IMG/VR virus record: IMGVR_UViG_3300021138_002083
Location: 1 to 22,412 of that record
Source: a virus
Length of the DNA stretch: 22,412 nucleotides
Direction: 5' to 3' (one strand)
Below, piece after piece: positions 2,880 to 22,412 of the stretch (position 1 is its first letter; each line of letters opens with the position of its first letter). The notes under the pieces are model-generated. The model did not search any database, was not told the origin of the DNA, and worked only from the letters and a program-made list of their open reading frames with translations. The translations under genes and the position numbers were made by a program.

Positions 2880-3470
2880 TTATTCTCGTTTAGAGATCAC
2901 CTTATCAGCCAAGCCGTACTCAACTGCCTCTTCTGCGCTCATGTAATTATCACGTTCCATATCCTGAGTTAGTTGATCAAAAGTCTTACCTGCACTGTTA
3001 TGCTTTACATAGATGCTAGTAAGATTCTTTTTCAGTTCTAGAATTTCTTCTACAACAATCAACATATCAGTAGCCTGACCTCTAGCACCACCACTGGGCT
3101 GGTGAATCATGTGGCGAGCATTGGGTAGAATCAAACGTTTGCCTGGTGCACCTGCTTGTGCCAATAAACTACCCATTGAGCAAGCCTGTCCCATAACAAT
3201 GGTTTGTACATCGGGTTTGACAAACTGCATAGAATCATAGATAGCCATACCAGCAGTTACGCTGCCACCTGGAGAATTGATATAAAGATAGATATCCTTA
3301 TCTGGATTATCACTCTCCAAATATAACAACTGCGCCACAATCAAATTAGCCATTTGATCATGCACTTCGCCTTCAAGTAGAATAACTCGGTCGCGCAATA
3401 AGCGACTGTAAATATCATAGCTGCGTTCGCCGCGGCTAGTTTGCTCTAAAACCATTGGAACTAAATTCAT
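2880..3470 (-). CDS. clpP: ATP-dependent Clp protease proteolytic subunit ClpP
   Basis: The 196-residue product is full length for mature ClpP and begins at the mature N-terminus ([23 protein letters not shown]), without the propeptide of E. coli ClpP. The catalytic triad is visible: Ser98 in GQACSMGS, His123 in MIHQPSGG, Asp174 in [11 protein letters not shown]. The substrate-binding strand [11 protein letters not shown] (65-75) is intact. It forms a tetradecameric barrel that degrades polypeptides fed by an AAA+ unfoldase; a ClpX is encoded at 7770-8975. A strong promoter (3489-3516) and a GAGAGG ribosome site precede the ATG at 3470. The N-terminal axial-loop region is close to the bacterial form, so it could work alone or mix with host subunits. 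Confidence 0.97.
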
Positions 3471-3488
3471 AATGTACCTCTCTGATAC

Positions 3489-3516
3489 ATTATATATGAA
3501 TGATTTGTGTAGTCAA
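3489..3516 (-). promoter_or_regulatory. Strong sigma70-like promoter of clpP
   Basis: Minus strand: -35 TTGACT (3516-3511), 16-base spacer, -10 TATAAT (3494-3489), followed by GAGAGG and the clpP ATG at 3470, so the leader is only about 12 bases. It sits in the 55-base gap between clpP and the 514-residue gene. Confidence 0.88.
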
Positions 3517-3525
3517 ATTATTTGG

Positions 3526-5070
3526 CTATCTTTTACGCTTTTCTCTACCAATATTTGCCGGAGACAAAACGGGCTTTTTCTTTTTAAGTTTGGGTTCAAT
3601 AATTGATCTGGCTGCTTTGGCTAGCGCAGTAGTAGACACGCTAGTTTCAGGTTCTGCCTTTTCAACTTCATTATCATTATCTGTATCTTTGGACTTGCTT
3701 GATCCTTTATCAATCTTGAATGTAAAGTTGCCCTTAATGCCCGTGCTATAATAAGTCTTACCCGCAGACAAGAATACACCCTTGATACTTTCGCCAGGAT
3801 ATACTGTATCAAAACTATCTAGCGACCAATTAACAGCACCTTGCTTTGCTTTAGTGTAAACTTGCACTAGCGCGCCATTGTTCAAGATATCAGCAGCGGC
3901 TTTGCTAAAATCAGTTTCGTCATTTATCTTGATTGCTGCTTTGTGTGCTACTGCTGCCATCAAGTGATAATACATGTTGGTATTTTCGGGATCGTTAGTT
4001 TCGCGCTTAAGTGCTAAGTCTTCTAGATTCTTACCCAACTTTAACTCTTTAATCTTACTAAGTTTAATGGGCTTGTGATTCTTCAAGTCTCTGATCTTAT
4101 CTGCTTCTTTTTCAGTAATGATATTGAATTTCGTGCCCAACATTAACGGGGCACCTGCTTGGCCTGCACTTGAAATCTTTTCTACCAATTCAATTTCATC
4201 TTTGTATTTCTTAAGCAGTTTTTTACCGGCTGGCGTGCCCTTCAATTCATTCACGCTATCGATTAAGTTCTTTGCGCTAGCCTGCGCACCTTTTCCACCT
4301 TTAGTACTAATCTTAACAAACTTACCATCTGAGTTAGTCATGATACTATCACTCAAACCTGCGGTCTTAGTTGTATCAAAAGAAATAACAGTATCGCCAA
4401 AATCTCCATCTAAGAATATCTCAGCAGCCTCGCCCGCATTACCTGTGTATTGACCATTTTGCAAAGCCATTGGCTGTAAGATTTCGCAAAAGTAATCTCT
4501 GAATGCAGTAAAACTAATACCTTCTGGTGCGGGAAATTCTATAGGCAGTGATTCACCTGAAGCAATTTTAAATGCTACTAAGTAAAGTGGGTTATCGGTA
4601 CCCAATGAAGTGCTTAACTGTTTTACAATCTCTTTAGAAGTTAAGTTATCTTTCTTAGTGAGCAAGTCTTGCGGAGATAAGCCTGCTTGTGCTTTGGCTG
4701 CAGCCTTGCCAGCAAATCTATAACCATTTACTTCATTTGGTATATAGTTATCGGTAGCAGATGGTTTAATACTTTCTAAGTATCTGCCAAAATAGATAGG
4801 TCCTTCTGCGGTATTAAATGCTGCTACAGCAAATCCACCAGTTCTACCTGACTTTAGATTCATCCATTTGATATCTTGTTCAGCGTTGATTGTATCTAAT
4901 GCTTGTTCTAATTCTTTTGGTGAAAACTTGCCGCCGCTTTCTGGGAAGAACTTTAAGTCGGAAAAAATGATTTCGTCACCTTCAGGATTACGAAAGGTGT
5001 CTCCGGGCTTTCTGCCCGCTAGCCCAGTGCTTTCTGATAGCACCGCTAAGAAGTTTATAATATCACGCAT
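3526..5070 (-). CDS. Large candidate capsid-packaged protein, unknown function
   Basis: This is the second longest protein in the window (514 residues). The N-terminus MRDIINFLAVLSE-S has a short amphipathic leader ending in L-S-E, as expected of a T4-type capsid-targeting sequence. It is followed by GRKPGDTFRNPEGDEIIF, which looks like a small beta-rich domain. The middle contains GDTVISFDTTKTAGLSDSIM and then GKFVKISTKGGKGAQASA (around 225-265). The acidic residues followed by a STK segment could fit a PD-(D/E)xK nuclease-like core, but this is only suggestive. The C-terminus is Ser/Asp-rich and then very basic (KLKKKKPVLSPANIGREKRKR region). The late-type box CATAAATA sits four bases before the ATG and no Shine-Dalgarno sequence is seen. 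Packaging and injection into the host are inferred; the activity is unknown. Confidence 0.8.
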   Translation of the reverse strand: MRDIINFLAVLSESTGLAGRKPGDTFRNPEGDEIIFSDLKFFPESGGKFSPKELEQALDTINAEQDIKWMNLKSGRTGGFAVAAFNTAEGPIYFGRYLESIKPSATDNYIPNEVNGYRFAGKAAAKAQAGLSPQDLLTKKDNLTSKEIVKQLSTSLGTDNPLYLVAFKIASGESLPIEFPAPEGISFTAFRDYFCEILQPMALQNGQYTGNAGEAAEIFLDGDFGDTVISFDTTKTAGLSDSIMTNSDGKFVKISTKGGKGAQASAKNLIDSVNELKGTPAGKKLLKKYKDEIELVEKISSAGQAGAPLMLGTKFNIITEKEADKIRDLKNHKPIKLSKIKELKLGKNLEDLALKRETNDPENTNMYYHLMAAVAHKAAIKINDETDFSKAAADILNNGALVQVYTKAKQGAVNWSLDSFDTVYPGESIKGVFLSAGKTYYSTGIKGNFTFKIDKGSSKSKDTDNDNEVEKAEPETSVSTTALAKAARSIIEPKLKKKKPVLSPANIGREKRKR

Positions 5071-5074
5071 CTAG

Positions 5075-5082
5075 TATTTATG
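5075..5082 (-). promoter_or_regulatory. T4-like late promoter box (CATAAATA-N4-ATG)
   Basis: CATAAATA followed by CTAG and the ATG at 5070, the same four-base spacing as at 2379 and 10348. It overlaps the stop codon of the sprT-like gene (5078-5080). A further exact TATAAATA lies at 5130-5137 inside the sprT-like coding region. Confidence 0.72.
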
Positions 5083-5536
5083 TACAATTAAAAAAGTCTT
5101 GTGTTCTAAACCAAGAACTCACGCTAAGATATTTATATAGAGGGATACCTTTTCTTTTGAAAAGTTTTCTGAATTTGTAGAAAGTAGGACCATGGCTCAT
5201 ATCGCGTTCTAGTATATCCCATTGATATTGATGTACCATTTCATGTGCTAAAGTAATCAAACACCACTGCTTGCAGTACCAACGATCGGTAAGTACAATT
5301 TCACAACTAGAACGATTTTTTCTTGGGGTTACTACATTTGCTTCGCAGTGTGCTAATGCAGTTCTATAAGATTCTTTGATAGTTAATTTGGGAGTGGGTA
5401 ATGCGTTGTCGAATAACTCTTCATTAAGCATTTTATACATTTTTTTGATTTGATATTTTGAGAGTTTATAAGGTAATCTTCGTTGTTCTGCTTTTGATGG
5501 CAGTTTAATAGCCATCAACTCTCGTATTTTGGTCAT
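5078..5536 (-). CDS. SprT-like zinc metalloprotease domain protein
   Basis: The 152-residue protein carries the zincin motif HEMVH (H98, E99, H102) in TLAHEMVHQYQW, and a downstream third ligand candidate H115 in SHGPTFYKFRKLF, the layout of SprT/Spartan-type domains. N-terminal helices (YKLSKYQIKKMYKMLNEELF) precede the core. The eukaryotic relative Spartan degrades DNA-protein crosslinks; phage SprT-like proteins are common but their substrate is not established. The ATG at 5536 has a GGAGG ribosome site at 5547-5551 and a possible late-type box GATAAATA at 5592-5599. A second Met at residue 8 is an alternative start. The gene is divergent from 5656. Confidence 0.9.
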   Translation of the reverse strand: MTKIRELMAIKLPSKAEQRRLPYKLSKYQIKKMYKMLNEELFDNALPTPKLTIKESYRTALAHCEANVVTPRKNRSSCEIVLTDRWYCKQWCLITLAHEMVHQYQWDILERDMSHGPTFYKFRKLFKRKGIPLYKYLSVSSWFRTQDFFNCT

Positions 5537-5591
5537 TTCGCAGTATCCTCCAGATGTTGAAAAATATAACTCAATTGTCTACCCTTTATAG

Positions 5592-5599
5592 TATTTATC
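5592..5599 (-). promoter_or_regulatory. Possible late-type promoter box for the sprT-like gene
   Basis: GATAAATA on the minus strand, about 55 bases upstream of the ATG at 5536, in the divergent gap. Unlike the leaderless boxes, this leaves room for a leader with a normal GGAGG ribosome site. It is a single AT-rich octamer, so a chance match cannot be excluded. Confidence 0.4.
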
Positions 5600-5655
5600 G
5601 TAAAAATATACCCGTCCATTTCAAAAATGTTAAATATCAGTTTAGGAGAAGAAAA

Positions 5656-5940
5656 ATGGAAGAAATCGCAATTTACGGGGTATTATGGGCTATTGCTGTT
5701 GGGTTTGTCGTCCTTTTTACCCGATACTTGATATCGCTTAGAAAGGCTAGAGAAGAGAATCTAACACTAGCAGAACCGGAAGAAACCCCAAAACAAGAGT
5801 TAAAACTAGAAGTAGTTAAGGCTGCTCCACCAGAAAAACCAGTCAAAGTAGCCAAGAAAAAGACTGCTGCCAAAAAGACTGCTGCCAAAAAGACTACTAA
5901 GAAAAAGGCAACGTCCGCTCCTCCCGCAGACAATCCATAA
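5656..5940 (+). CDS. Membrane-anchored protein with a histone-H1-like Lys/Ala tail
   Basis: The 94-residue product has one N-terminal transmembrane helix (residues 6-24, AIYGVLWAIAVGFVVLF), a short basic collar (RYLISLRKAR), an acidic linker, and a C-terminal tail made of KKTAAKKTAAKKTTKKKA (68-85). Such KTAAKK repeats occur in histone H1 and bacterial H1-like or AlgP-like proteins and bind nucleic acid through charge. I expect the tail on the cytoplasmic side by the positive-inside rule. The frame is open from 5554, but AGGAGAAGAAAA immediately before the ATG at 5656 fixes the start. The stop overlaps the next start in TAATG, so the two genes are coupled. Tethering DNA or RNA to the membrane is a hypothesis only. 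Confidence 0.8.
   Translation: MEEIAIYGVLWAIAVGFVVLFTRYLISLRKAREENLTLAEPEETPKQELKLEVVKAAPPEKPVKVAKKKTAAKKTAAKKTTKKKATSAPPADNP
5857..5895 (+). repeat. 15-base tandem repeat encoding the KKTAA units
   Basis: AAAAAGACTGCTGCC is present twice head to tail (5857-5871, 5872-5886) and partly a third time (5887-5895). It keeps the reading frame and encodes the H1-like tail. The near-identical DNA copies suggest recent slippage expansion. Confidence 0.85.
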
Positions 5941-6641
5941 TGTCTATAGGGTTTGATATAATCAGTGACTTGTATCTTACCCCGGAAGAAAGTTTCAACT
6001 GGGAAAACAAAGCTACTAGTTTATACTGTATAGTAGCGGGAAACATTACATCAGATGCCCGCACTTTATATCAAACCCTAGGACATTTAACTAGATTTTA
6101 TCAAGGAGTTTTTTACGTTCCTGGACCGCTAGAATACAAGGATTGTATTAATATCAATGTTAGAACCCAGGAACTTGCTAATCTTTGCAAGCATATACCC
6201 AAAGTGGCTATGCTTTATCAGCATGTGGTTATTATAGACGGGGTAGCAGTTTTGGGCTGTAACGGATGGTCCGTAGACCCCGATTCCCTACTCAGCGTGC
6301 CTGAACAACAGATTGACAGTGCCAGATATGAAGATATACTTTACATGAAGAAAAGTATAGCCAAATTGCAAACACATTTGGACGTAAAAAAGATAGTGAT
6401 TGTGACTAGTTCAGTACCTAAAAAAGAACTTTATTTTGGGGAAGTACCCAGCTTTTATGACGACAGAATACAATTAGACTTTGGATTAGGTGCTGATACT
6501 GAGTCTAAAGTTACCAAATGGGTGTTTGGCACATATGAAAAAATAGTTGATACTACTCTTGATAGTATCAACTATGTTAATAACCCATATTATAAAGTAA
6601 AGCCCTATTGGGCTAAAAGAATTGATATAAGTCTCAAGTAG
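5940..6641 (+). CDS. Calcineurin-like metallophosphoesterase-fold protein with degenerate metal site
   Basis: The 233-residue protein follows the layout of calcineurin-like phosphoesterases, but the usual ligands are changed at nearly every motif: DxH reads D10-L-Y12, GD reads GN (G34, N35), GNHE reads GPLE (62-65), the HH motif reads TSS (156-158), and GHxH reads GTYE (197-200). The surrounding strands remain family-like (IISDLYL, CIVAGNI, VFYVPGPLEY, KIVIVTSS, KWVFG), and the fold appears conserved. Loss of five or six ligands argues that it is not a phosphoesterase and may instead bind a partner or ligand. It is coupled to the preceding gene (TAATG) and its 3' end overlaps the convergent clpS by eight bases. 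Confidence 0.75.
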   Translation: MSIGFDIISDLYLTPEESFNWENKATSLYCIVAGNITSDARTLYQTLGHLTRFYQGVFYVPGPLEYKDCININVRTQELANLCKHIPKVAMLYQHVVIIDGVAVLGCNGWSVDPDSLLSVPEQQIDSARYEDILYMKKSIAKLQTHLDVKKIVIVTSSVPKKELYFGEVPSFYDDRIQLDFGLGADTESKVTKWVFGTYEKIVDTTLDSINYVNNPYYKVKPYWAKRIDISLK

Positions 6642-6942
6642 TTTCAGGTTCTACTTTTACTTGAAGTGGGTAGCCCTGAGCCCTAGCATCCATTGCTACT
6701 TCGATCCCACGCTGTTCTGCAATTTCATAGGGTAGTACGGCAACCGTTGCAGCGCCGTCAGTATGGATATTCTGCGTAATATTAAATGCAGTTTCTTCTG
6801 TGTAGTTAAAATAATCTACTAGTGAATTAATTACAAAGTCCATAGTAGTTACATCGTCGTTAAGGTAAATAACCTTAAACATTGGGGGTTCGCGTAGTGC
6901 GGTGTTAGGCACAATCTTTTGTCGGGTATCTGCGTTTGCCAT
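6634..6942 (-). CDS. clpS: ATP-dependent Clp protease adaptor ClpS
   Basis: The 102-residue product matches ClpS, which binds N-degron substrates (bulky N-terminal residues) and delivers them to an AAA+ unfoldase. Landmarks are PPMFKVIYLNDDVTTMDFV (19-37), containing the N28-D29-D30 and M34 pocket residues, H60 in NIHTDGAATVAV (corresponding to E. coli H66), and the C-terminal YPLQVKVE strand. The flexible N-terminal tail needed for delivery is present (residues 1-18). In bacteria ClpS partners ClpA, not ClpX; no ClpA lies in this window, so it may redirect host ClpAP. An AAAGG ribosome site precedes the ATG, and a hairpin occupies the leader. Confidence 0.95.
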   Translation of the reverse strand: MANADTRQKIVPNTALREPPMFKVIYLNDDVTTMDFVINSLVDYFNYTEETAFNITQNIHTDGAATVAVLPYEIAEQRGIEVAMDARAQGYPLQVKVEPETT

Positions 6943-6960
6943 TGTTTTTATCCTTTAAAA

Positions 6961-6988
6961 AGTTCGCGGTCATAATCGACCGCGAACT
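6961..6988 (-). terminator. Perfect 11-bp hairpin with U-tract between hsp20 and clpS
   Basis: AGTTCGCGGTC pairs with GACCGCGAACT across a six-base loop (6972-6977). On the minus strand it is followed by TTTTT, the form of an intrinsic terminator for hsp20. Because the clpS ribosome site lies immediately after it, it could also act as an attenuator or 5' stabiliser of clpS mRNA. An AATAAATA box just upstream (7003-7010) could start a clpS transcript that includes the hairpin. Confidence 0.75.
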
Positions 6989-7001
6989 ATGTACTACTAT
7001 A

Positions 7002-7457
7002 CTATTTATTATAAGCAATAGCAATTTTCTTGGGCTTCTGCTCTTCTGGGATTTCCCTGACTAAGTTAATAGTCAAGATGCCATCAGACAGATCGGCTGC
7101 TGAGACCTTGACATGCTCTGCCAACGGAAACACCCTAATGAAGTTTCGTGCCCCAATGCCACGATGCAAGTACTCAACTTCTTCTTCAAACTGATCAGCC
7201 GCTTGCGAACCTTCAATGATAAGATGATTTTTATCCAAAGTAATATTAATATCACTTTCTGAAAAACCGGCTACAGCAAGTTCAATAGCAAAGTGATCAT
7301 CATCAAATTTCAGATGGTTGTACGGTGGATAATTGGTCTCAGTTTGCTGAGTAGAAATACGCATTAGTTCATCAAGCATGGATTCAAAGCCGATTCCAAA
7401 CTTTGTAATGCGCGGGATATCTAAGGAACGTAGGGTAAGGGTGTGTGAATGTGTCAT
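7002..7457 (-). CDS. hsp20: Small heat-shock protein, IbpA-like (Hsp20/alpha-crystallin family)
   Basis: This ATP-independent holdase has 151 residues. The N-terminal arm contains FGIGFESMLDEL and ends in YPPYNHLK, close to the YPPYNIEK of proteobacterial IbpA. The alpha-crystallin domain runs from about residue 48 to 135, with FAIELAVAGF, HLIIEGSQ, YLHRGIGARNFIRVFPLAEHV, and GILTINLVREIPE. The C-terminal KKIAI supplies the I-x-I anchor that docks into a neighbouring subunit. The ATG at 7457 has AAGGAG eight bases upstream, but that site is predicted to be folded away in a ROSE-like hairpin (7465-7481), suggesting temperature control. Small heat-shock genes occur in many T4-like aquatic phages; a role in virion assembly is proposed for the family. 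Confidence 0.95.
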   Translation of the reverse strand: MTHSHTLTLRSLDIPRITKFGIGFESMLDELMRISTQQTETNYPPYNHLKFDDDHFAIELAVAGFSESDINITLDKNHLIIEGSQAADQFEEEVEYLHRGIGARNFIRVFPLAEHVKVSAADLSDGILTINLVREIPEEQKPKKIAIAYNK

Positions 7458-7520
7458 TTGTTTTCTCCTTTAATAAGCAAGATGACTATAGTTGTAGACC
7501 CGACTACCGGCATCTACAAC
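7458..7520 (-). promoter_or_regulatory. ROSE-like RNA thermometer in the hsp20 leader
   Basis: The leader folds into two hairpins. Hairpin I pairs GTTGTAGA (7520-7513) with TCTACAAC (7498-7491), with an inner CCG/CGG stem. Hairpin II pairs CUU-G-CUU (7481-7475) with the Shine-Dalgarno AAGGAG (7470-7465) across the loop AUUA; the G opposite the Shine-Dalgarno strand is unpaired and one pair is U-G. That is the arrangement of ROSE elements, where a U-U/C-G-C-U strand with a special G masks AGGA and melts on warming. Family knowledge: ROSE thermometers control small heat-shock genes in proteobacteria. The structure was folded by hand. Confidence 0.65.
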
Positions 7521-7523
7521 ATA

Positions 7524-7531
7524 TATTTATT
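7524..7531 (-). promoter_or_regulatory. Late-type promoter box of hsp20
   Basis: AATAAATA (7531-7524) would place the start near 7518, exactly at the 5' edge of leader hairpin I. A second box, CATAAATA, lies 34 bases upstream at 7558-7565, overlapping the bS21 stop codon. Confidence 0.5.
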
Positions 7532-7557
7532 CTATCAGATTACGCAAAAAATAATAT

Positions 7558-7565
7558 TATTTATG
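7558..7565 (-). promoter_or_regulatory. Second late-type box upstream of hsp20
   Basis: CATAAATA on the minus strand (7565-7558), overlapping the TAA stop of the bS21 gene at 7561-7563. It could give an hsp20 transcript with a longer leader. Identical in sequence to the three leaderless boxes elsewhere. Confidence 0.4.
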
Positions 7566-7773
7566 GGTTAATTGTATTCTGTGCTGCTAAGAACTTTTTC
7601 CAACGCTTCTTAGCCATAGCCCTAGCGATCTTACGGGCTACACAAGGTTTGGTGTAAGTCTGGCGCTCTTGAACTTCCATTAGTACGCCGGACTCGGCTA
7701 CTTTCTTTTTGAGTTTTCTAAGGGCTTTTTCAACGTTACCATCTTTTACAAAAACTTTTCTACCTGAAATCAT
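7561..7773 (-). CDS. rpsU: Ribosomal protein bS21 homologue
   Basis: This 70-residue, strongly basic protein matches bS21 of the 30S subunit: VFVKDGNVEKALRKLKKKV (7-25), SGVLMEVQERQTYTKP (28-43) corresponding to GVL-E-R-RE-Y-KP, then the basic helix RKIARAMAKKRWKKFL. bS21 sits near the 3' end of 16S rRNA, where Shine-Dalgarno pairing occurs, and affects initiation. Phage-encoded bS21 is established in aquatic phages and is thought to exchange into host ribosomes to favour phage mRNAs. The start overlaps the clpX stop in ATGA (7773-7770), with AAAGG ahead of it inside clpX. A possible late box GATAAATA lies inside clpX at 7811-7818. Confidence 0.93.
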   Translation of the reverse strand: MISGRKVFVKDGNVEKALRKLKKKVAESGVLMEVQERQTYTKPCVARKIARAMAKKRWKKFLAAQNTINP

Positions 7774-8975
7774 ATAATTACCTTTGGGTTATCCACTAAT
7801 TCTTGATTAATATTTATCTTCTTAACATCCGCTTCTTTATATTTTGAGATATTGAACATATGAGGTAATAGCACACGCTCTATCTCACTTTGCAGACCTC
7901 TAGCACCAGTTTTTAATTTCAAACAATTTTCGGCTATTTGTGCAATAGCGTCTTTGTTGAAAGATAATTTGATGCCATCCAATTCAAATAGATACTTGTA
8001 TTGATCGATAAAGTTATTCTTGATATCGGTCAATACTTTTATCAACTGGTCCTTGGTTAAGTCATCTACATTGATAGTAGTAGCAAATCTACCCACAAAT
8101 TCTGGGATCATACCAAACTTAGTTAAGTCTTCAGGTATAACTTCGCTTAAGAAACTTTTATCTTCTGCGCTAACAATCTGTGCTCCAAATCCTAATGACG
8201 AACCTTTAGAGCGGCGCTTGATAATATCGTTCAAGCCCACGAATGCTCCACCGGCGATAAACAAAATGTTTCTAGTATCTACTACAGTCATTTCACTTGA
8301 AGGATGCTTTCTTCCGCCAGATGGTTGCACTCGGCACTTAGTGCCTTCAATTAGTTTAAGAAGAGCTTGTTGTACACCTTCGCCCGAAACGTCACGACTA
8401 ATGTTAGCACTTTCACCTTTGCGGGCTATCTTGTCGATCTCGTCAATAAAGACAATTCCCCTTTCGGCTAGTGCTACATCTCCTTTTGCTTCGGCTAACA
8501 ACATAGAAATCATACTTTCAACGTCATCGCCAACATATCCTGCTTCAGTTAGGCTAGTAGCATCTGCAACGATGAAAGGAACATCTAGCAGTCTTGCTAC
8601 TGATTTGGCTAAGAGTGTTTTGCCGGACCCAGTAGGACCAATTAGTAATACATTACCCTTCTGCATTTCTAAGTTTTTAGGAGGGCTAGTGATTCGCTTG
8701 TAGTGATTAGCAATAGCAACACTAAGTACAATCTTAGCGTTTTCTTGCCCAATTACATGCTCGTCTAAATGAGTTTTGATTGTAATAGGATCATAGATTT
8801 TAGGAGAATTTTTAGATTCTTCATCTTCGTGTTCTTTGATCGTTTGAGTACAAAACTCAATACACTCGTTGCAAATCGCAACTGTGGTAGCTGTTACCAA
8901 CAACTTTACTGAATTTTTGTTTTTACCGCAAAAACTACATGTAGTTGCGGCAGCCTTTTCTTTCTCTGTGTCCAT
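7770..8975 (-). CDS. clpX: ATP-dependent Clp protease unfoldase subunit ClpX
   Basis: The 401-residue AAA+ protein has all ClpX landmarks: the N-terminal zinc-binding domain with C13, C16, C35 and C38; Walker A GPTGSGKT (113-120); pore loop GYVG (146-149); Walker B VFIDEID (175-181); RKH loop (222-224); the ClpP-docking loop LGF (261-263, IGF in E. coli); then sensor and small domain (GARGLQSEIERVL). Keeping both the zinc domain and the LGF loop indicates a working unfoldase that can dock on ClpP, phage or host. It is slightly shorter than the E. coli protein (424). It lies nine bases downstream of the 452-residue membrane protein and overlaps rpsU by four bases, suggesting an operon. Confidence 0.97.
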   Translation of the reverse strand: MDTEKEKAAATTCSFCGKNKNSVKLLVTATTVAICNECIEFCTQTIKEHEDEESKNSPKIYDPITIKTHLDEHVIGQENAKIVLSVAIANHYKRITSPPKNLEMQKGNVLLIGPTGSGKTLLAKSVARLLDVPFIVADATSLTEAGYVGDDVESMISMLLAEAKGDVALAERGIVFIDEIDKIARKGESANISRDVSGEGVQQALLKLIEGTKCRVQPSGGRKHPSSEMTVVDTRNILFIAGGAFVGLNDIIKRRSKGSSLGFGAQIVSAEDKSFLSEVIPEDLTKFGMIPEFVGRFATTINVDDLTKDQLIKVLTDIKNNFIDQYKYLFELDGIKLSFNKDAIAQIAENCLKLKTGARGLQSEIERVLLPHMFNISKYKEADVKKININQELVDNPKVII

Positions 8976-14403: not shown

Positions 14404-14904
14404 CTAGGACAGGAAAGACTCTGCCATAGCCCTTAGGGTCGGGTCGCCCTTATCCATAAGGGTCAGCAGAAGACTCTTCTCCTGCAGGTACACTTGGGCA
14501 AAGTTGGGATCGTGCACCAGGATCGACTTGCTGTTGGATATCAGGTCCGCCAGCTTGACCGTCTGCGCCTCTGCAGGTGCTGCGGCTGAGTGCCGCGCGT
14601 CGATCGCTTTCCTAACTGCTCGATTACCATCCTCGGGCTTGCTAACATCAGTCAGCCAAGCAACCAGTTCGGCAACTTCCGCACCGAACTCAGCTCTCAC
14701 CTGCGCCAGCGTGACCCCAGTATCCTCGACTACATCGTGCAGCCAAGCCGCAGCCAGCATCTCTTCAGTATGTGGCACTGACATGACCAGGTCCACAACC
14801 TCAGCCGGGTGAACAATGTAGTCCTCGCCGGTGTACTTGCGCTTCTGACCAACTGCCGCGTGGGCAGCAGTAGCGAACACTCGGGCTTTTTCTACCACGT
14901 TCAT
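14404..14904 (-). CDS. Small HD-domain (p)ppGpp hydrolase, MESH1/SpoT-hydrolase type
   Basis: The 166-residue product matches the hydrolase domain of RelA/SpoT homologues: HAAVGQKRKYTGEDYIVHPAEV (15-36) with metal ligand H32, AAWLHDVVEDTG (52-63) with H56-D57 and catalytic E60-D61, and VKLADLISNS (116-125) with D120 and N124. It lacks the synthetase, TGS and ACT domains, so it is a stand-alone small alarmone hydrolase converting (p)ppGpp to GDP/GTP and pyrophosphate. In infection it could suppress the stringent response and keep host transcription and translation active; that role is inferred. Base composition is markedly GC-rich compared with the flanks, suggesting recent acquisition. An AGGAGTTC ribosome site precedes the ATG. 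Confidence 0.9.
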   Translation of the reverse strand: MNVVEKARVFATAAHAAVGQKRKYTGEDYIVHPAEVVDLVMSVPHTEEMLAAAWLHDVVEDTGVTLAQVRAEFGAEVAELVAWLTDVSKPEDGNRAVRKAIDARHSAAAPAEAQTVKLADLISNSKSILVHDPNFAQVYLQEKSLLLTLMDKGDPTLRAMAESFLS

Positions 14905-16213: not shown

Positions 16214-17530
16214 ATGAAAGAAATACTAGAACAAATTAGAAAATACATAGATAGTAAACAAGCGGAAAAGACTTGGGTAGCCGGCAAAGATTTTGTTAAT
16301 TACGCCGGACCGCATTTTACTTCTGATGAGTTCGTAGCAGCCGCAGAAGCATTACTGAACGGATGGTTAGTAATGGGCAATAAGAGCTTACGCTTTGAAC
16401 ATGAGTTCCCCAAGATGTTAGGTAAGACTAACGGAGTGTTAACTAACAGTGGTTCATCTGCTAATTTGCTTATGATGTCCGCAATGAAGTCAAAGCGCGG
16501 GCACAATTTTCCAATTGGTACTAAAGTTTTAATGCCTATTGCAGGATTTCCAACAACTTTAAACCCTACTATACAAAACGGATTTATTCCAGTATTTTGT
16601 GATATCGAAGTAGATACACTAAACATTGATTTAAATCATGCAGAGCAGTTACTGGAAAATGATCCAGATATCAAGATCATGACTTTTGCTCATGTATTGG
16701 GAAATCCTCCTAATATGGACAAGGTTGTAGAATTAGTTAAGAAATACAATTTGGTTCTTTTAGAAGATTGCTGTGATGGACTAGGAACTACTTATGACGG
16801 CAAGCCCTTAGGTAGTTTTGGTGAAATGTCATCGTGTTCATTCTATCCAGCGCATCATATTACAATGGGGGAAGGTGGCTTTGTTGCTATGAATGATCCT
16901 CAACAGGAAATCATTGTACGCAGTTTACGTGAATGGGGAAGAGGGTGTTACTGTGTAGGGCCAAAAGCCAACAAGTTAAAATGCGGTACTTGTAAAAAGC
17001 GATTTAGCAAATGGATTCCAGAAATGCCTGATGATACATTTGATCATAAGTATGTCTACGATGAAATCGGATACAATTTAAAACCAATCGAAATACAAAG
17101 TGCTATTGGTCTAGAACAGATTAAAAAACTTCCAGAAATACACAAGTTGCGTCAACGTAACTATAACTTGTTGTTTAGCATTTATGAAAAATATGAAGAG
17201 TTTTTTCACTTACCCAGAGCTACAAATAAAGCAGATGTAAGTTGGTTTGCTTTTCCGCTAACTATTCGTGAAGGTGCGCCCTTTACACGTATGGACATCG
17301 TTGACTATTTAGAAGAAAATCTAATACAGACTCGCCCTTATTTCGCCGGTAATATTATGCTACAACCAGCGTATAGCCATTTGATGAACCCATCAGATGC
17401 TAAAAGCAATTTTCCAGTAGCTACATTTACGATGAAAAATACTTTTTTTCATGGATGTAGCCCCGTAGTTACAGAAGAGCAAATTAAATATATTGGCGAA
17501 GTCGTTGACAGTTTTATGAAAGCTTTATAA
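16214..17530 (+). CDS. rfbH: CDP-4-keto-6-deoxy-D-glucose 3-dehydrase (E1), RfbH/DdhC family
   Basis: The 438-residue protein has the size of RfbH/DdhC (about 437). It is a DegT/AHBA-fold, PMP-dependent enzyme that removes the C3 hydroxyl of a CDP-4-keto-6-deoxyhexose. The key sign is FYPAHHITMGEGG (210-222): where aminotransferases have the PLP-binding Lys, this has His (H214), the hallmark of the dehydrase. It also carries cysteines for the [2Fe-2S] cluster (C245, C247, C257, C260; C186/C187 nearby), absent from the GDP-sugar enzyme ColD. The CxC-X9-CxxC spacing differs from the compact form I recall in Salmonella RfbH. Its reductase partner (DdhD/E3) is not in the window. First gene of the operon. 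Confidence 0.93.
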   Translation: MKEILEQIRKYIDSKQAEKTWVAGKDFVNYAGPHFTSDEFVAAAEALLNGWLVMGNKSLRFEHEFPKMLGKTNGVLTNSGSSANLLMMSAMKSKRGHNFPIGTKVLMPIAGFPTTLNPTIQNGFIPVFCDIEVDTLNIDLNHAEQLLENDPDIKIMTFAHVLGNPPNMDKVVELVKKYNLVLLEDCCDGLGTTYDGKPLGSFGEMSSCSFYPAHHITMGEGGFVAMNDPQQEIIVRSLREWGRGCYCVGPKANKLKCGTCKKRFSKWIPEMPDDTFDHKYVYDEIGYNLKPIEIQSAIGLEQIKKLPEIHKLRQRNYNLLFSIYEKYEEFFHLPRATNKADVSWFAFPLTIREGAPFTRMDIVDYLEENLIQTRPYFAGNIMLQPAYSHLMNPSDAKSNFPVATFTMKNTFFHGCSPVVTEEQIKYIGEVVDSFMKAL

Positions 17531-17544
17531 AGAGGTTAGTTATA

Positions 17545-18222
17545 GTGAAGAATATTAAGGATTTGATATATTTAAACAAGCATGGTTGGTATTGGCCAAA
17601 AATTGACCCGTCAGACATTGCAGATAGCACATGGAGTTTTTTACATGACAAATATCCTGACACACCAGAAAAAATTGCGAACTATGTTCCTTTAAAAAGA
17701 GTTGCAGTGCAAGCCGGCGGCAATTGTGGGTTATACGTAAAAAAATTATCTGACTTATTTGAAACTGTTTATACTTTTGAACCTGACCCACTAAATTTTG
17801 CCTGTTTAAATTTAAACGTAATCAAAGATAATGTCTATAAGTTTCCAACTGGGTTAGGCAATGAGCATGTCGCAATTGCAATGGCTGATTATAACGCACA
17901 ACTTGGTTGCGGTGGTAATCATATTTCAAATTCAAAAAAAAGCGGTACTATACCTACTTTAAAAATTGATGATTTGAATTTACAAGTTTGCGATTTAATT
18001 ATGTTAGATGTTGAAGGATACGAACTATTTGCACTGCAAGGTGGTAAAAAAACTATTCAACGATGCAAACCGGTTATTACTTTAGAACTGGCAAATTATA
18101 CTGGAAGATATGGGTATTCTTTAGAAGATTTATTTAATTTTCTTTCATCTATTAATTACAAACATATGGGTGCAATTGCAGATACAATGTCAGATCATTT
18201 ATTTATGCACATCGGAGTTTAA
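17545..18222 (+). CDS. FkbM-family SAM-dependent methyltransferase
   Basis: The 225-residue protein begins at GTG 17545, with AGAGG upstream. It shows the FkbM fold: KRVAVQAGGNCGLYVKKL (51-68) forms the SAM-binding loop, VYTFEPDPLNF (75-85) holds the acidic ribose ligand, CDLIMLDVEGYELFALQGG (149-167) is the diagnostic D-xEG-E--L-G segment, and CKPVITLEL closes the core. FkbM enzymes O-methylate sugars or other glycan hydroxyls. The gene lies 14 bases after rfbH and directly abuts the TPP-enzyme ATG (18223). Methylation of the branched sugar, of a glycan end or of another target cannot be distinguished. Confidence 0.9.
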   Translation: MKNIKDLIYLNKHGWYWPKIDPSDIADSTWSFLHDKYPDTPEKIANYVPLKRVAVQAGGNCGLYVKKLSDLFETVYTFEPDPLNFACLNLNVIKDNVYKFPTGLGNEHVAIAMADYNAQLGCGGNHISNSKKSGTIPTLKIDDLNLQVCDLIMLDVEGYELFALQGGKKTIQRCKPVITLELANYTGRYGYSLEDLFNFLSSINYKHMGAIADTMSDHLFMHIGV

Positions 18223-20034
18223 ATGGACAATATAAAAGCAAGTGACTTTTTAGCAGAAACTTTAGAAAATTTAGGAATAACGCACGCTTTCGGAATTATT
18301 GGAGCGGGGAACGTACATTTATTCGAATCGATTGCTAGTAGAGGCTACACAAAAATAATTTGTGTTCATCACGAACAAGCTGCAACAATGGCGATGCAAA
18401 CCTATTATCGTATTAGCGGAAAAATAGCAGCGTGTTTACTAACGACTGGCGCCGGATCAACTAACGGAGTTACTGGAGTAGTTTCGGCATGGGCTGATTC
18501 TATTCCCGGTATTGTCATTGCAGGAAATGAAAACTCTAAGTATACACTACCATATAGTCCTTATAGAATGTGGGGAGTTCAAGGATATGATTCGGTAGAT
18601 ATGATTAAAAAAGTAACTAAGTACTCAAATCGTGTAGTCGCTCCTGAAAATATTCAATACGAGTTAGAAAAAGCCAAGCATATCTCATTACATCAAAGAC
18701 CGGGCCCAGTTTGGATTGAAATTCCTATGGACATTCAGAGTAGCTTTGTATCTAAAGAAAAATGTGAGCATTACGTTCCTCCTATAGATGGTACTTTTAT
18801 TAATAATCAATTAAACTTGCAAATCGATAACATAATAAATTCTTTAATAGAATCTGAAAGACCAATTCTTTGGCTAGGTCACGGGATACGATTAGCAAAT
18901 GCAGAAAAAAAGATTAAAACATTACTAGAAGTGTTAGAGATACCTTCTCTAGTTTCTTGGGCCGGTATTGACATGATCGATTCTAACCACCCATTGGTAT
19001 ATGGTAGAGCGGGTGTATACGGACAAAGGGCAGCAAACTTTATTTTACAAAATAGCGATTATGTATTAACAATTGGTACTAGATTAGCATTACCTCAAAT
19101 TGGATACAACCTTACAGAATTAGCTAGAGACGCAACGATTGATGTGGTCGATATTGATCCAAACGAGGCAACCAAAAATAAATCAAGAACCAGAGAATCA
19201 GTTGTCTGTGATGCTGGATTGTTTTTAGATATTCTTATTGAAAGAGTTAGTAACCTTAAAATTTCTAAAAAGAATTGGATAAAGCAATGCGACAAATACA
19301 GAGATCAATTTCCATGGGTAGATACTGAACATGCTGATAAGGAAGGGTTTATTAATTCTTATAGATTTATGCAAGAATTAAACAAACACTTTAAACCAAA
19401 TCAGATTGTAGTAACTGACATGGGAACTGCGCTACTGTCAGGACACCAGGTCTTAAAGATAAACTCGGGACAACGGTTGTTAACATCTACTGGTTTAGGA
19501 GAAATGGGGTATGGATTACCCGGAGCGATTGGTGCCAGCGTTGCTACAGATTACGGCGAAGTAATGTGTTTAAATTGCGACGGTGGAATGATGCTAAATT
19601 TACAAGAATTACAAACAATGGCTCATTTTAAACTTCCTATTAAACTTTTTATTTTTAACAATGACGGATATCTAATGATTAAGCATACACAAAATGCTTT
19701 ATTTAAGACTAACAGTGTTGGTGTTGATGCATCGACCGGAGTAACATGTCCCGATTTTAGTCGCTTAGCCGATGCATTTGAAATTCCGTCATATCAAATC
19801 AGATCATGGGACGACTTTAATGAAGTTATTCCTAAAGTTCAAGCTGAACTTGGTCCTGTAATATGCGAAGTTTTTATGCACCCAAAACAACTATTTTCTC
19901 CTAAATTAGGTATGACAATGAGAGAAGATGGAACTTTAGTTTCTTCACCACTTGAAGACTTGTCCCCCTTACTGCCTCGCGATGTACTGAAAGAAGTAAT
20001 GATTGTTGGTTTACACAAAAAATCAATCACTTAA
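18223..20034 (+). CDS. TPP-dependent acetolactate-synthase-like enzyme (YerE-like 2-ketoacid acyl transferase)
   Basis: The 603-residue protein has the three-domain ThDP-enzyme layout. The Pyr domain has the proton-relay Glu (E51 in CVHHEQAATMAM), then TTGAGSTNGVTGVVSAWADS. A central TH3-like domain runs from about 200 to 340. The PP domain has the C-D453-G-G ... N479-N480 motif binding ThDP and metal. With an rfbH two genes upstream, the closest functional parallel is YerE of Yersinia, which decarboxylates pyruvate and adds the acetyl unit to C4 of CDP-3,6-dideoxy-4-keto-glucose, giving yersiniose. True acetolactate synthase is less likely, as no regulatory subunit or branched-chain amino-acid genes are nearby. 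The donor ketoacid here is open: see the DmpFG-like genes next to it. Confidence 0.85.
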   Translation: MDNIKASDFLAETLENLGITHAFGIIGAGNVHLFESIASRGYTKIICVHHEQAATMAMQTYYRISGKIAACLLTTGAGSTNGVTGVVSAWADSIPGIVIAGNENSKYTLPYSPYRMWGVQGYDSVDMIKKVTKYSNRVVAPENIQYELEKAKHISLHQRPGPVWIEIPMDIQSSFVSKEKCEHYVPPIDGTFINNQLNLQIDNIINSLIESERPILWLGHGIRLANAEKKIKTLLEVLEIPSLVSWAGIDMIDSNHPLVYGRAGVYGQRAANFILQNSDYVLTIGTRLALPQIGYNLTELARDATIDVVDIDPNEATKNKSRTRESVVCDAGLFLDILIERVSNLKISKKNWIKQCDKYRDQFPWVDTEHADKEGFINSYRFMQELNKHFKPNQIVVTDMGTALLSGHQVLKINSGQRLLTSTGLGEMGYGLPGAIGASVATDYGEVMCLNCDGGMMLNLQELQTMAHFKLPIKLFIFNNDGYLMIKHTQNALFKTNSVGVDASTGVTCPDFSRLADAFEIPSYQIRSWDDFNEVIPKVQAELGPVICEVFMHPKQLFSPKLGMTMREDGTLVSSPLEDLSPLLPRDVLKEVMIVGLHKKSIT

Positions 20035-20035
20035 C

Positions 20036-20914
20036 ATGAGCAAACTTAAAGTAGCAATTCTAGGAACAGGAAATATCGGGACTGACTTGTTAGTGAAAAT
20101 TACCAAATCAGAATATCTGTCTTGCACAATGTTTACTGGGAGAAATTTAAATTCTGTTGGAATGCGTAGAGCAAAGTCTTTGGGTATTGCTATTTCGGAT
20201 CAAGGAATTAACGAAATTGTTAATGATCCTAGCATATGTGATGTAGTAGTAGACTGCACTTCAGCGCAAGCACATCATGATCACTGGCCTATCTGTCATA
20301 GTTTAGGAAAAACGGTTATTGACCTTACCCCTGCTAAACTGGGTAGTTTCTGTGTTCCGGCTGTAGCAAATGAATCTTGGAACGACAATGAAACAAAGAA
20401 TATTAACATGATCACTTGTGGTGGGCAAACGAGCATTCCAATAGCATTTGCCCTAAGCAGAGTTCATAAAGATATAGAATACATTGAAGTAGTATCAAAT
20501 ATCGCGTCACTAAGTGCAGGCCCGGCAACAAGGCAAAATCTTGATGAGTATGTGGAAACTACACAACTGGCACTTTGTGAATTATCAGGAGCAAAAAGTG
20601 CTAAAGCGATATTAATTTTAAATCCAGCAAATCCTCCTATATATATGATAACAACCATCTATGCAAAGATTAAACATCCTAACTTAGAAATGATAAAAAA
20701 ATCGGTAGAAGAAATGGTCGATCATGTTCGTCAGTATGTTCCGGGGTATCAGTTGGTTGTGCCACCTTTAGTCAGAGACAATACGGTAATTTTAACAGTT
20801 AAGGTATTAGGTGCCGGAGACCACTTACCTCAATATGCCGGTAACTTAGATATAATCAATTGTGCGGCTATTGCAATCTTAGATTCGATAGCAAAGTCAA
20901 AATTAGGGATATGA
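20036..20914 (+). CDS. Acylating acetaldehyde dehydrogenase, DmpF/MhpF family
   Basis: The 292-residue product shows GTGNIG (10-15) for NAD binding, catalytic Cys128 in MITCGGQTSIP, and the family segment VSNIASLSAGPATRQNLDEY. It interconverts acetaldehyde + CoA + NAD and acetyl-CoA + NADH. I chose the ATG at 20036, one base after the TPP-enzyme stop; the frame is open from 20003 but lies inside that gene. DmpF forms a channelled complex with the aldolase DmpG, encoded one base downstream, in catechol meta-cleavage pathways. No other genes of that pathway are present, so a biosynthetic use in sugar-branch formation is more likely here. Confidence 0.93.
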   Translation: MSKLKVAILGTGNIGTDLLVKITKSEYLSCTMFTGRNLNSVGMRRAKSLGIAISDQGINEIVNDPSICDVVVDCTSAQAHHDHWPICHSLGKTVIDLTPAKLGSFCVPAVANESWNDNETKNINMITCGGQTSIPIAFALSRVHKDIEYIEVVSNIASLSAGPATRQNLDEYVETTQLALCELSGAKSAKAILILNPANPPIYMITTIYAKIKHPNLEMIKKSVEEMVDHVRQYVPGYQLVVPPLVRDNTVILTVKVLGAGDHLPQYAGNLDIINCAAIAILDSIAKSKLGI

Positions 20915-20915
20915 T

Positions 20916-21944
20916 ATGAAAAAAATACTTATTACCGACCCAACACTGCGTGATGGAAATCATGCTATAAGACATCAACTTAAAAAAGAACACTTTGCTA
21001 TGTATTGCCGAGCTGCTGACTTAGCAGGAATTCCGATCGTTGAAGTTGGGCATGGAAACGGATTAGGAGCATCGTCTCTACTAGTAGGTGAATCAGCAAC
21101 TAGTGACTATGATATCTTGTCGATCAGCAGAGAAAATTTAAAAAAATCAAAACTATCTATACATGTTATCCCAGGTTTTTGCACGATAAAGCAACACTTG
21201 AATATGGCAATCGACTTGGGAGTAGATATATTTAGAGTAGGCAGCCATGTTACAGAAGCAGATGTTACTAAACGCCATATTGAATATATTAGGCATTCAG
21301 GAAAAACAGTCTGGGGAGTATTGATGATGAGTCATATGGCCCCTATTTCTCAACTAGTTAACGAATCTAAGAAAATGGAGTCGTACGGAGCCCAGGCTAT
21401 TGTTATCATGGATTCATCTGGGAATTACTTAGAAGAAGATGTTTATTCTAGAATTAATGCACTAGTTTCCGAATTGCCGATTCCAATAGGATTTCATGGA
21501 CACAATAATTTAGGATTAGCCGTGGGAAATTCAGTTTCTGCTATCAAGGCCGGTGCATCGATTATTGACGGAACAGTAAGAGGGTTTGGTGCAGGTGCCG
21601 GTAACACACAACTAGAAGCTATTGTTGCGGTATTAGAGCGAATAGGTTACGACACCGGGATTGATTTATATAAACTCCTAGATTTGGCAGACTTAGTTGA
21701 AAAAGAATTTAATCCAGTTCCACCTCACATTTCGCCTATATCAATAATTAGTGGATTAGCCGGAGTTTTTTCTGGATTTGCTAAACAAGTTACTTCAGTG
21801 GCTCGTGATTACCGAGTTGACCCCAGGGATATATTTATGGAATTAGGTAAAAGGAAAGCGGTAGCAGGTCAAGAAAGTTTAATTATTGAAGTTGCACAAG
21901 AGTTGGCAGCAGCAAAAAGTAAAGAAGAGTATCATGGATTCTAA
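20916..21944 (+). CDS. 4-hydroxy-2-oxovalerate aldolase, DmpG/BphI family
   Basis: The 342-residue class II TIM-barrel aldolase shows TDPTLRDGNHA (7-17) with R12, D13 and H16, the metal ligands H194 and H196 in GFHGHNNLGLAVGNS, and GTVRGFGAGAGNTQLE. It cleaves or forms 4-hydroxy-2-oxopentanoate from pyruvate and acetaldehyde. Together with the DmpF-like gene one base upstream it makes the standard aldolase-dehydrogenase pair. The stop overlaps the next gene by 11 bases. In this setting it may run in the synthetic direction to supply a 4-hydroxy-2-oxoacid; that is my inference, not known. Confidence 0.93.
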   Translation: MKKILITDPTLRDGNHAIRHQLKKEHFAMYCRAADLAGIPIVEVGHGNGLGASSLLVGESATSDYDILSISRENLKKSKLSIHVIPGFCTIKQHLNMAIDLGVDIFRVGSHVTEADVTKRHIEYIRHSGKTVWGVLMMSHMAPISQLVNESKKMESYGAQAIVIMDSSGNYLEEDVYSRINALVSELPIPIGFHGHNNLGLAVGNSVSAIKAGASIIDGTVRGFGAGAGNTQLEAIVAVLERIGYDTGIDLYKLLDLADLVEKEFNPVPPHISPISIISGLAGVFSGFAKQVTSVARDYRVDPRDIFMELGKRKAVAGQESLIIEVAQELAAAKSKEEYHGF

Positions 21945-22412
21945 AGTAAAAACAGTATTAATTACCGGGGCTACAGGTTTTATTGGTTATTTTTTAGTTA
22001 AAGAATTTATTAAAGACTATAATGTTATTTGTATAGTACGTCCGAATTCTAGAAATTTAATAAGGCTTGAAGAATTTAAAAATAAAATTACTTTAATCGA
22101 ACATAACTTAAAGGACAGTTATGATTCTATCTTTAATAAGTTAAAAAATGTAAACCTGATCTTACACGCCGGGGGAAACCCGAGTTCAGAAGATAGCGTC
22201 AACAATCCAGTTCCTCTTATTACTGATAACATACTCGGGACTTTGCAGGTATTAGAATTGTCAAGGAAGTTAAGTTTAGATAGGTTTTTTTACTATGCAG
22301 CCGGAGAATCTTTTGGGCCTGTGCTAAAAAACCAAGATTCCCTAGAAACTGACCCATACAATAGTTTAAGTCCATATGCAGCCGCTAAAGCGGGCGGTGA
22401 AGAGTTATGTAC
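21934..22412 (+). CDS. NAD-dependent epimerase/dehydratase (extended SDR), partial
   Basis: The ATG at 21934 overlaps the aldolase 3' end by 11 bases; the frame stays open to the right edge (159 residues seen). VLITGATGFIGYFLVKEF (8-25) is the Rossmann GxxGxxG motif, VRPNSRN follows, LILHAGG is the typical fourth strand, and SPYAAAKAGGEEL carries the Y-x3-K catalytic pair. It is an extended SDR acting on a nucleotide sugar. It does not look like RfbG (CDP-glucose 4,6-dehydratase). Reduction or epimerisation of the branched sugar is plausible. The C-terminal substrate domain is outside the window. Confidence 0.9.
   Translation, partial: MDSKVKTVLITGATGFIGYFLVKEFIKDYNVICIVRPNSRNLIRLEEFKNKITLIEHNLKDSYDSIFNKLKNVNLILHAGGNPSSEDSVNNPVPLITDNILGTLQVLELSRKLSLDRFFYYAAGESFGPVLKNQDSLETDPYNSLSPYAAAKAGGEELC

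Follow-up and report, generated by a model that had tools for sequence, protein, structure and literature searches.

The 22,412-base IMG/VR virus record IMGVR_UViG_3300021138_002083 (hereafter the window) carries at its right end an operon of six genes, and the gene identities, residues, linkage and phage context observed there make it probable that the operon specifies a phage-borne pathway to an erwiniose-type branched sugar. The genes encode an RfbH-type dehydrase, an FkbM-family methyltransferase, a thiamine diphosphate (ThDP) enzyme, the aldehyde dehydrogenase DmpF, the aldolase DmpG and a short-chain dehydrogenase/reductase (SDR). The window is the complete record, itself a fragment, and readable sequence stops inside the SDR gene at the right edge. 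A preliminary description of this DNA proposed a longer-branched sugar as a novelty. The chemistry was well supported, the novelty not: erwiniose, a sugar already described, is a 3,6-dideoxy-4-ketohexose to which 4-hydroxy-2-oxopentanoate has been added with loss of its carboxyl group.

The six genes occupy positions 16214-22412 on the plus strand. The intergenic gaps are, in order, 14, 0, 1 and 1 bases, and the final junction, between DmpG and the SDR, is an 11-base overlap. Equivalog models of NCBIfam, with their cut-offs, were used for RfbH, DmpF and DmpG, and Pfam for FkbM, the ThDP domains and the SDR. Together with the coordinates, these matches confirmed the six-gene operon with gaps of 0-14 bases or overlaps that had been described. 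The first gene (16214-17530) encodes a nucleoside diphosphate (NDP)-4-keto-6-deoxyglucose C3-dehydrase of the pyridoxamine phosphate/[2Fe-2S] type (NF011936, 444 bits; cut-off 423). Its alignment to E1 (3bcx/3bb8) places a histidine at the position of the pyridoxal phosphate-binding lysine (FYPAHHITMGEGG; E1 His220) and retains the four [2Fe-2S] cysteines (equivalents of 193, 251, 253 and 261 of E1), so that the earlier assignment as an RfbH-type dehydrase with His for Lys stood on alignment, cysteines and model score alike. The FkbM-family methyltransferase (17545-18222; PF05050, E 3e-13; TIGR01444 above cut-off) is a probable sugar O-methylation enzyme, and relatives lie close to the module in the viral loci L060, L061, L062 and L070. 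The ThDP enzyme (18223-20034), in which Pfam matched all three ThDP domains, is 68% identical to JanthE (8rph) over 576 residues. DmpF (20036-20914, ATG at 20036; TIGR03215, 376 bits, cut-off 282) is of the acylating acetaldehyde dehydrogenase type that converts acetyl-CoA to acetaldehyde; the nearest solved chain is 7z3s, and the catalytic Cys motif TCGGQ is kept. DmpG (20916-21944; TIGR03217, 372 bits, cut-off 286) is of the class II pyruvate aldolase type with a communication domain (PF07836), and it keeps R16, D17, H20, H199 and H201, the Arg/His catalytic pair and the Asp-His-His metal site. The truncated NAD-dependent SDR (21934-22412, ATG at 21934; PF01370, E 5e-24) is a candidate branch-ketone reductase, approximately 30% identical to the SDRs of the bacterial clusters L034, L013 and L007.

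Sequence places the ThDP enzyme among YerE-like enzymes of the JanthE type, for which ketone-accepting carboligation is predicted. It shares with JanthE the rare motif Cys-Asp-Gly (CDG; C452-D453-G454) and has the catalytic Glu51, and the JanthE pocket residues V119, Y266, P291, Y295 and K561 are kept. The natural substrates of JanthE have been reported as still unidentified, and the enzyme takes 4-hydroxy-2-oxovalerate with benzaldehyde (PMC12188165). ErwE of Pectobacterium atrosepticum joins a hydroxy-functionalised 2-oxo acid to cytidine diphosphate (CDP)-4-keto-3,6-dideoxyglucose to give erwiniose; it favours 4-hydroxy-2-oxo acids such as 4-hydroxy-2-oxopentanoate, and pyruvate is not used (PMC12247030). 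We gathered loci by similarity to the ThDP enzyme, so the counts that follow are not an unbiased census, and the trees are quick searches with support from the Shimodaira-Hasegawa-like approximate likelihood ratio test (SH-aLRT) only. The 54 genome loci contained RfbH in 49 cases, DmpF in 46, DmpG in 45, DdhA in 45, DdhB in 44 and an SDR in 43. The DmpFG pair was present in 45 of these 54 loci, which span Burkholderiales, Pseudomonas, Bacteroidota and others, and in 10 of 19 viral loci, in addition to the window. The order RfbH-ThDP-DmpF-DmpG occurred in 24 bacterial loci (RfbH was placed last in 13 more) and in all 10 viral loci possessing the latter three genes, the window included. This gene-order search established that DmpFG is linked to the other genes in related genomes, as the preliminary description required. 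In the ThDP tree the DmpFG linkage tracks essentially one clade (54 of the 58 non-reference rows), with four changes overall. Setting aside four clade members that are without the pair in the fetched stretch, the motif was CDG in all 55 DmpFG-linked ThDP enzymes and Gly-Asp-Gly (GDG) in all 14 unlinked ones. An orthologue 98.6% identical to JanthE lies in a DdhA-DdhB-RfbH-ThDP-DmpF-DmpG-SDR cluster (L017), an arrangement that suggests 4-hydroxy-2-oxopentanoate as the donor. As a separate observation, three Candidatus Nitrosopelagicus contigs (L052, L055 and L056) carry RfbH with a ThDP enzyme of GDG type (35-36% identical); DdhA/DdhB accompany them in two of the contigs, where DmpFG is absent. 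These may represent a yersiniose-type route in archaeal genomes, or possibly mis-binned DNA.

The active site of DmpG bears on the stereochemistry of the donor. In the alignment of sugar-linked DmpG sequences (BphI numbering), His87 was found in 57 of 57, the window counted once, and Phe290 in all 56 in which the position is present. The eight catabolic references all have Leu87 and Tyr290; the window enzyme, with His87 and Phe290, does not carry this catabolic 4S signature. A fully supported branch separates the sugar-linked from the catabolic copies in the DmpG tree. For the DmpG check we also drew 369 genomes from a single class as an independent sample. Only three of these genomes had His87/Phe290, and CDG-type ThDP matches, at 57-68% identity, were confined to the same three. 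A further 24 DmpF-linked DmpG sequences carried Leu or Ile at 87 with Tyr290, and two distant copies were otherwise different. In the class sample, among the genomes listed, none with long rpoB matches exceeded 73% identity to E. coli. BphI makes and uses the 4S enantiomer only, Y290F abolishes its stereocontrol, and the L87N/Y290F and L87W/Y290F variants use only the 4R enantiomer (PMC3962088). Because His87/Phe290 parallels these 4S-to-4R switch variants, the sugar-linked aldolases should make 4(R)-hydroxy-2-oxopentanoate. A plasmid search with DmpG returned catabolic pairs plus one Streptomyces copy with Phe87/Phe290 (L103:8001-9008); the latter is 54.6% identical to that of the window, falls between the sugar-linked and catabolic groups, and has unannotated neighbours.

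Could the aldolase instead accept an aldehyde that is longer or carries a hydroxyl group, so that the branch would be extended as in caryophyllose? Caryophyllose is indeed a longer relative, the donor preference of the caryophyllose enzyme resembles that of ErwE, and pocket residues 87-89 are unlike those of catabolic DmpG. Yet the coupled DmpF (TIGR03215, acetyl-CoA route) delivers acetaldehyde, and residue 89 of the sugar-linked enzymes is Ile, Met or Val, with no opening like that created by L89A, the change that makes room in BphI for long aldehydes; we regard the longer branch as very improbable. Equally slight, in our judgement, is the chance that DmpFG runs catabolically, as an auxiliary metabolic module feeding acetyl-CoA to the phage, its position in the operon being incidental. 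The family is best known from meta-cleavage catabolism, for example MhpE/MhpF with MhpC/D in E. coli, or members found with DmpE/DmpH in Achromobacter, but the window showed no gene for a hydratase or for ring cleavage, bacterial relatives lie in nucleotide-sugar clusters, and the tree and positions 87 and 290 set the sugar-linked enzymes apart from the catabolic ones. A somewhat stronger competitor, though still an unlikely one, is that the donor of the ThDP enzyme is pyruvate, as for YerE, and the branch a yersiniose-type one of two carbons, while DmpFG only tops up pyruvate/acetyl-CoA or serves elsewhere. In vitro, JanthE takes various 2-oxo acids, pyruvate included, so the enzyme alone does not settle the donor, and four viral contigs (L063, L064, L068 and L071) combine phage-type RfbH and RmlB-type genes with a ThDP enzyme that is distant and of GDG type; DmpFG is missing there, which would suit a shorter branch. 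Against a pyruvate donor, DmpFG tracks the CDG clade and is missing beside GDG enzymes, ErwE does not use pyruvate, and the change in the DmpG active site is fixed throughout the sugar-linked set. Thus the earlier proposal that DmpFG makes 4-hydroxy-2-oxopentanoate as the donor for the ThDP enzyme was supported in part, in silico, by the linkage, the donor preference of ErwE and the distinct DmpG site.

The operon DNA belongs to a phage, because the module recurs on phage contigs and the flanking genes of the window match one of them. Four further phage contigs (326, 141, 27 and 57 kb) hold relatives of the ThDP enzyme at 65-73% identity and repeat the RfbH-ThDP-DmpF-DmpG order. On the 326-kb contig, T4-type major head and portal proteins accompany the module; L004 has the module with tail-sheath and virion proteins, and L005 has a sliding clamp and clamp loader in the fetched stretch. 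The 141-kb contig has the module together with the ClpP (65%), 514-residue protein (29-30%), ClpS (40%) and Hsp20 (39%) of the window. In the window itself the phage evidence consists of a phage-type ligase and these shared flank genes. The five phage ThDP enzymes, that of the window among them, form one clade (SH-aLRT 97) inside a Burkholderiales-dominated group, and ten viral RfbH sequences, again including the window, group in a clade of their own (SH-aLRT 99), to which neither E1 nor the DdhAB-linked bacterial RfbH belongs. More distant ThDP relatives were present in 15 additional viral loci, some with DmpFG. Among the 50,697 phage records of INPHARED, queries with the ThDP enzyme and DmpG gave only distant acetolactate synthase-like or aldolase/synthase-family matches, often in unannotated or bacterial-looking records, and no named phage was found with the module. 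Misbinning or joining of bacterial O-antigen DNA onto a phage contig might be suspected from the fragmentary 22-kb window, from the shift of strand and G+C near 16.0 kb, and from the closeness of its ThDP and DmpG sequences to those of Burkholderiales. Considering that the same module stands with T4-type portal and capsid genes in the 326-kb contig, with tail-sheath and virion genes in L004 and with clamp and clamp-loader genes in L005, that the 141-kb contig shares both module and four flank genes, and that viral RfbH is a clade of its own, such an artefact is hardly credible.

The nucleotide carrier is a different matter. Neither DdhA nor DdhB reached the cut-off in any of 14 phage records, which are fragments, and neither was found in the 19 viral loci. 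In 12 viral loci an RmlB-type dehydratase is encoded close to the module. Against TIGR01181 (cut-off 365), three of these enzymes scored 290-301 bits; their scores against the CDP family were 58-71, and the TDEVYG motif is kept in four of four checked. The CDP carrier is doubtful in phages because DdhA/DdhB were not found and the RmlB-type dehydratase stands in their place. The claim that RfbH leads to CDP-3,6-dideoxy-4-keto-hexose thus held for the identity of RfbH and became doubtful for the carrier. A deoxythymidine diphosphate (dTDP) carrier is plausible in phages; the host could still supply CDP-sugars. The likeliest history is that a phage RfbH/RmlB core was joined by a ThDP-DmpF-DmpG cassette from Burkholderiales. 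The fuller proposal falls somewhat short of probable and we advance it tentatively: large phages would have re-plumbed the erwiniose pathway, phage-lineage RmlB-type and RfbH enzymes leading to a dTDP-3,6-dideoxy-4-keto sugar, and the Burkholderiales cassette adding the 4(R) branch and altering the glycan of the infected cell or virion. Other sugar genes were seen in these islands. In L005 (3079-6178), GDP-mannose dehydratase-like, GDP-fucose synthase-like and ColD/RfbH-like genes are consecutive, suggesting that this phage island also specifies a sugar of the colitose type; cyanophage S-CAM7 has a comparable annotated trio (L112). The sugar island of the 326-kb contig encodes on the minus strand a RuBisCO-like protein of 396 residues (L002:2686-3879), adjoining a nucleotidyltransferase and glycosyltransferases, whose closest NCBIfam models are form III RuBisCO and OiaX, all below cut-off.

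We propose the following sequence of reactions. Judging from its family, RfbH would strip O-3 off NDP-4-keto-6-deoxyglucose to give NDP-3,6-dideoxy-4-ketoglucose. The preceding 4,6-dehydration in phages would probably fall to the adjacent RmlB-type enzyme, whose substrate is perhaps dTDP-glucose and which would replace the enzymes that bacteria use on CDP-glucose; in the window its gene would lie past the right edge. DmpF would convert acetyl-CoA to acetaldehyde, channelled through the protein to DmpG, which would condense it with pyruvate to 4(R)-hydroxy-2-oxopentanoate, the 4R configuration being predicted from His87/Phe290. By analogy with JanthE and ErwE, the CDG-type ThDP enzyme would decarboxylate this acid and attach the C4 unit to the 4-ketone of the sugar, leaving a tertiary alcohol that bears a 3-hydroxybutanoyl branch. 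The SDR would then reduce the branch ketone to give erwiniose or a stereoisomer, and the FkbM protein may O-methylate it. The branched sugar would most likely end up on the infected cell, as part of a surface glycan, or on the virion.

Several points weigh against this proposal. No RfbH reductase (E3) was found in the phage modules, and no RmlB is visible in the window, because the record ends too soon. Four members of the ThDP clade (L006, L026, L044 and L045) are without the DmpFG pair in the fetched stretch, the L026 contig ending after DmpF. The comparison with ErwE covers its published description, and with an implied GDG motif that enzyme possibly falls outside the CDG clade. The BphI variants had Asn or Trp at position 87, never His. 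The 4R prediction fits erwiniose as a D-gulo-octose derivative with an R centre at C7 (from C4 of the acid), but this stereochemical match is a tentative one, worked out by hand.

The remainder of the window lies outside the pathway, its left 15 kb mostly on the strand opposite to the operon. The phage flank (2880-11939, minus strand) comprises ClpP, the 514-residue protein, ClpS, Hsp20, ClpX and the DNA ligase (phrog_114, E 5e-93); the Clp and Hsp20 names come from inspecting translations. ClpP, ClpS, Hsp20 and ClpX are clustered in one stretch (2880-8975), and the related 141-kb contig has ClpP, ClpS and Hsp20 with a GroEL-like open reading frame (L092:278-1900) and a ClpA-like one (L095). 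A metal-dependent HD phosphohydrolase (14404-14904, minus strand; phrog_990) shows SpoT/MESH1-type likeness. A promoter scan of the window gave no excess relative to shuffles, and a search for RNA families and tRNAs found none.

Our analysis predicts 4(R)-hydroxy-2-oxopentanoate as the physiological donor for the JanthE group, and His87/Phe290 as a two-residue sign of a biosynthetic, probably 4R-specific DmpG, a natural counterpart to the published engineered switch. Large phages would thus carry genes that both build a sugar branch and make its donor, and not only genes for sugar trimming or transfer. The link of DmpFG to such ThDP enzymes may already have been proposed in the ErwE, JanthE or YerE literature. 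Among known systems, the cyanophage sugar islands (Synechococcus phages RN05-S and S-CAM7) are T4-type and have RfbH/ColD-like dehydrases, SDRs, FkbM proteins and glycosyltransferases, but the phage records that include them gave no close match to the ThDP enzyme or DmpG. The DmpFG, BphIJ and MhpEF pairs belong to the same families as the window pair and share its catalytic and metal residues and communication domain, whereas BphIJ/MhpEF-type aldolases have Leu or Ile at 87 with Tyr290 and the window pair lies in a sugar operon. YerE, of yersiniose A synthesis, is of the same enzyme class and acts on the same type of acceptor sugar, yet the longest chain that it transfers is C3 and its preferred donor is pyruvate, and the DmpFG-linked enzymes have CDG instead of GDG. 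JanthE (Janthinobacterium sp. HH01; PDB 8rph, 8rpi and 8rpj) matches the window enzyme in overall identity, motif and pocket; JanthE-type bacterial clusters have DdhA/DdhB, and the window enzyme is a phage copy. The erwiniose pathway of P. atrosepticum, as in the window, combines an RfbH-type 3,6-dideoxy-4-keto acceptor, a 4-hydroxy-2-oxo acid donor and a YerE-like ThDP enzyme (PMC12247030), but it is bacterial and CDP-linked, with the canonical GDG implied for ErwE.

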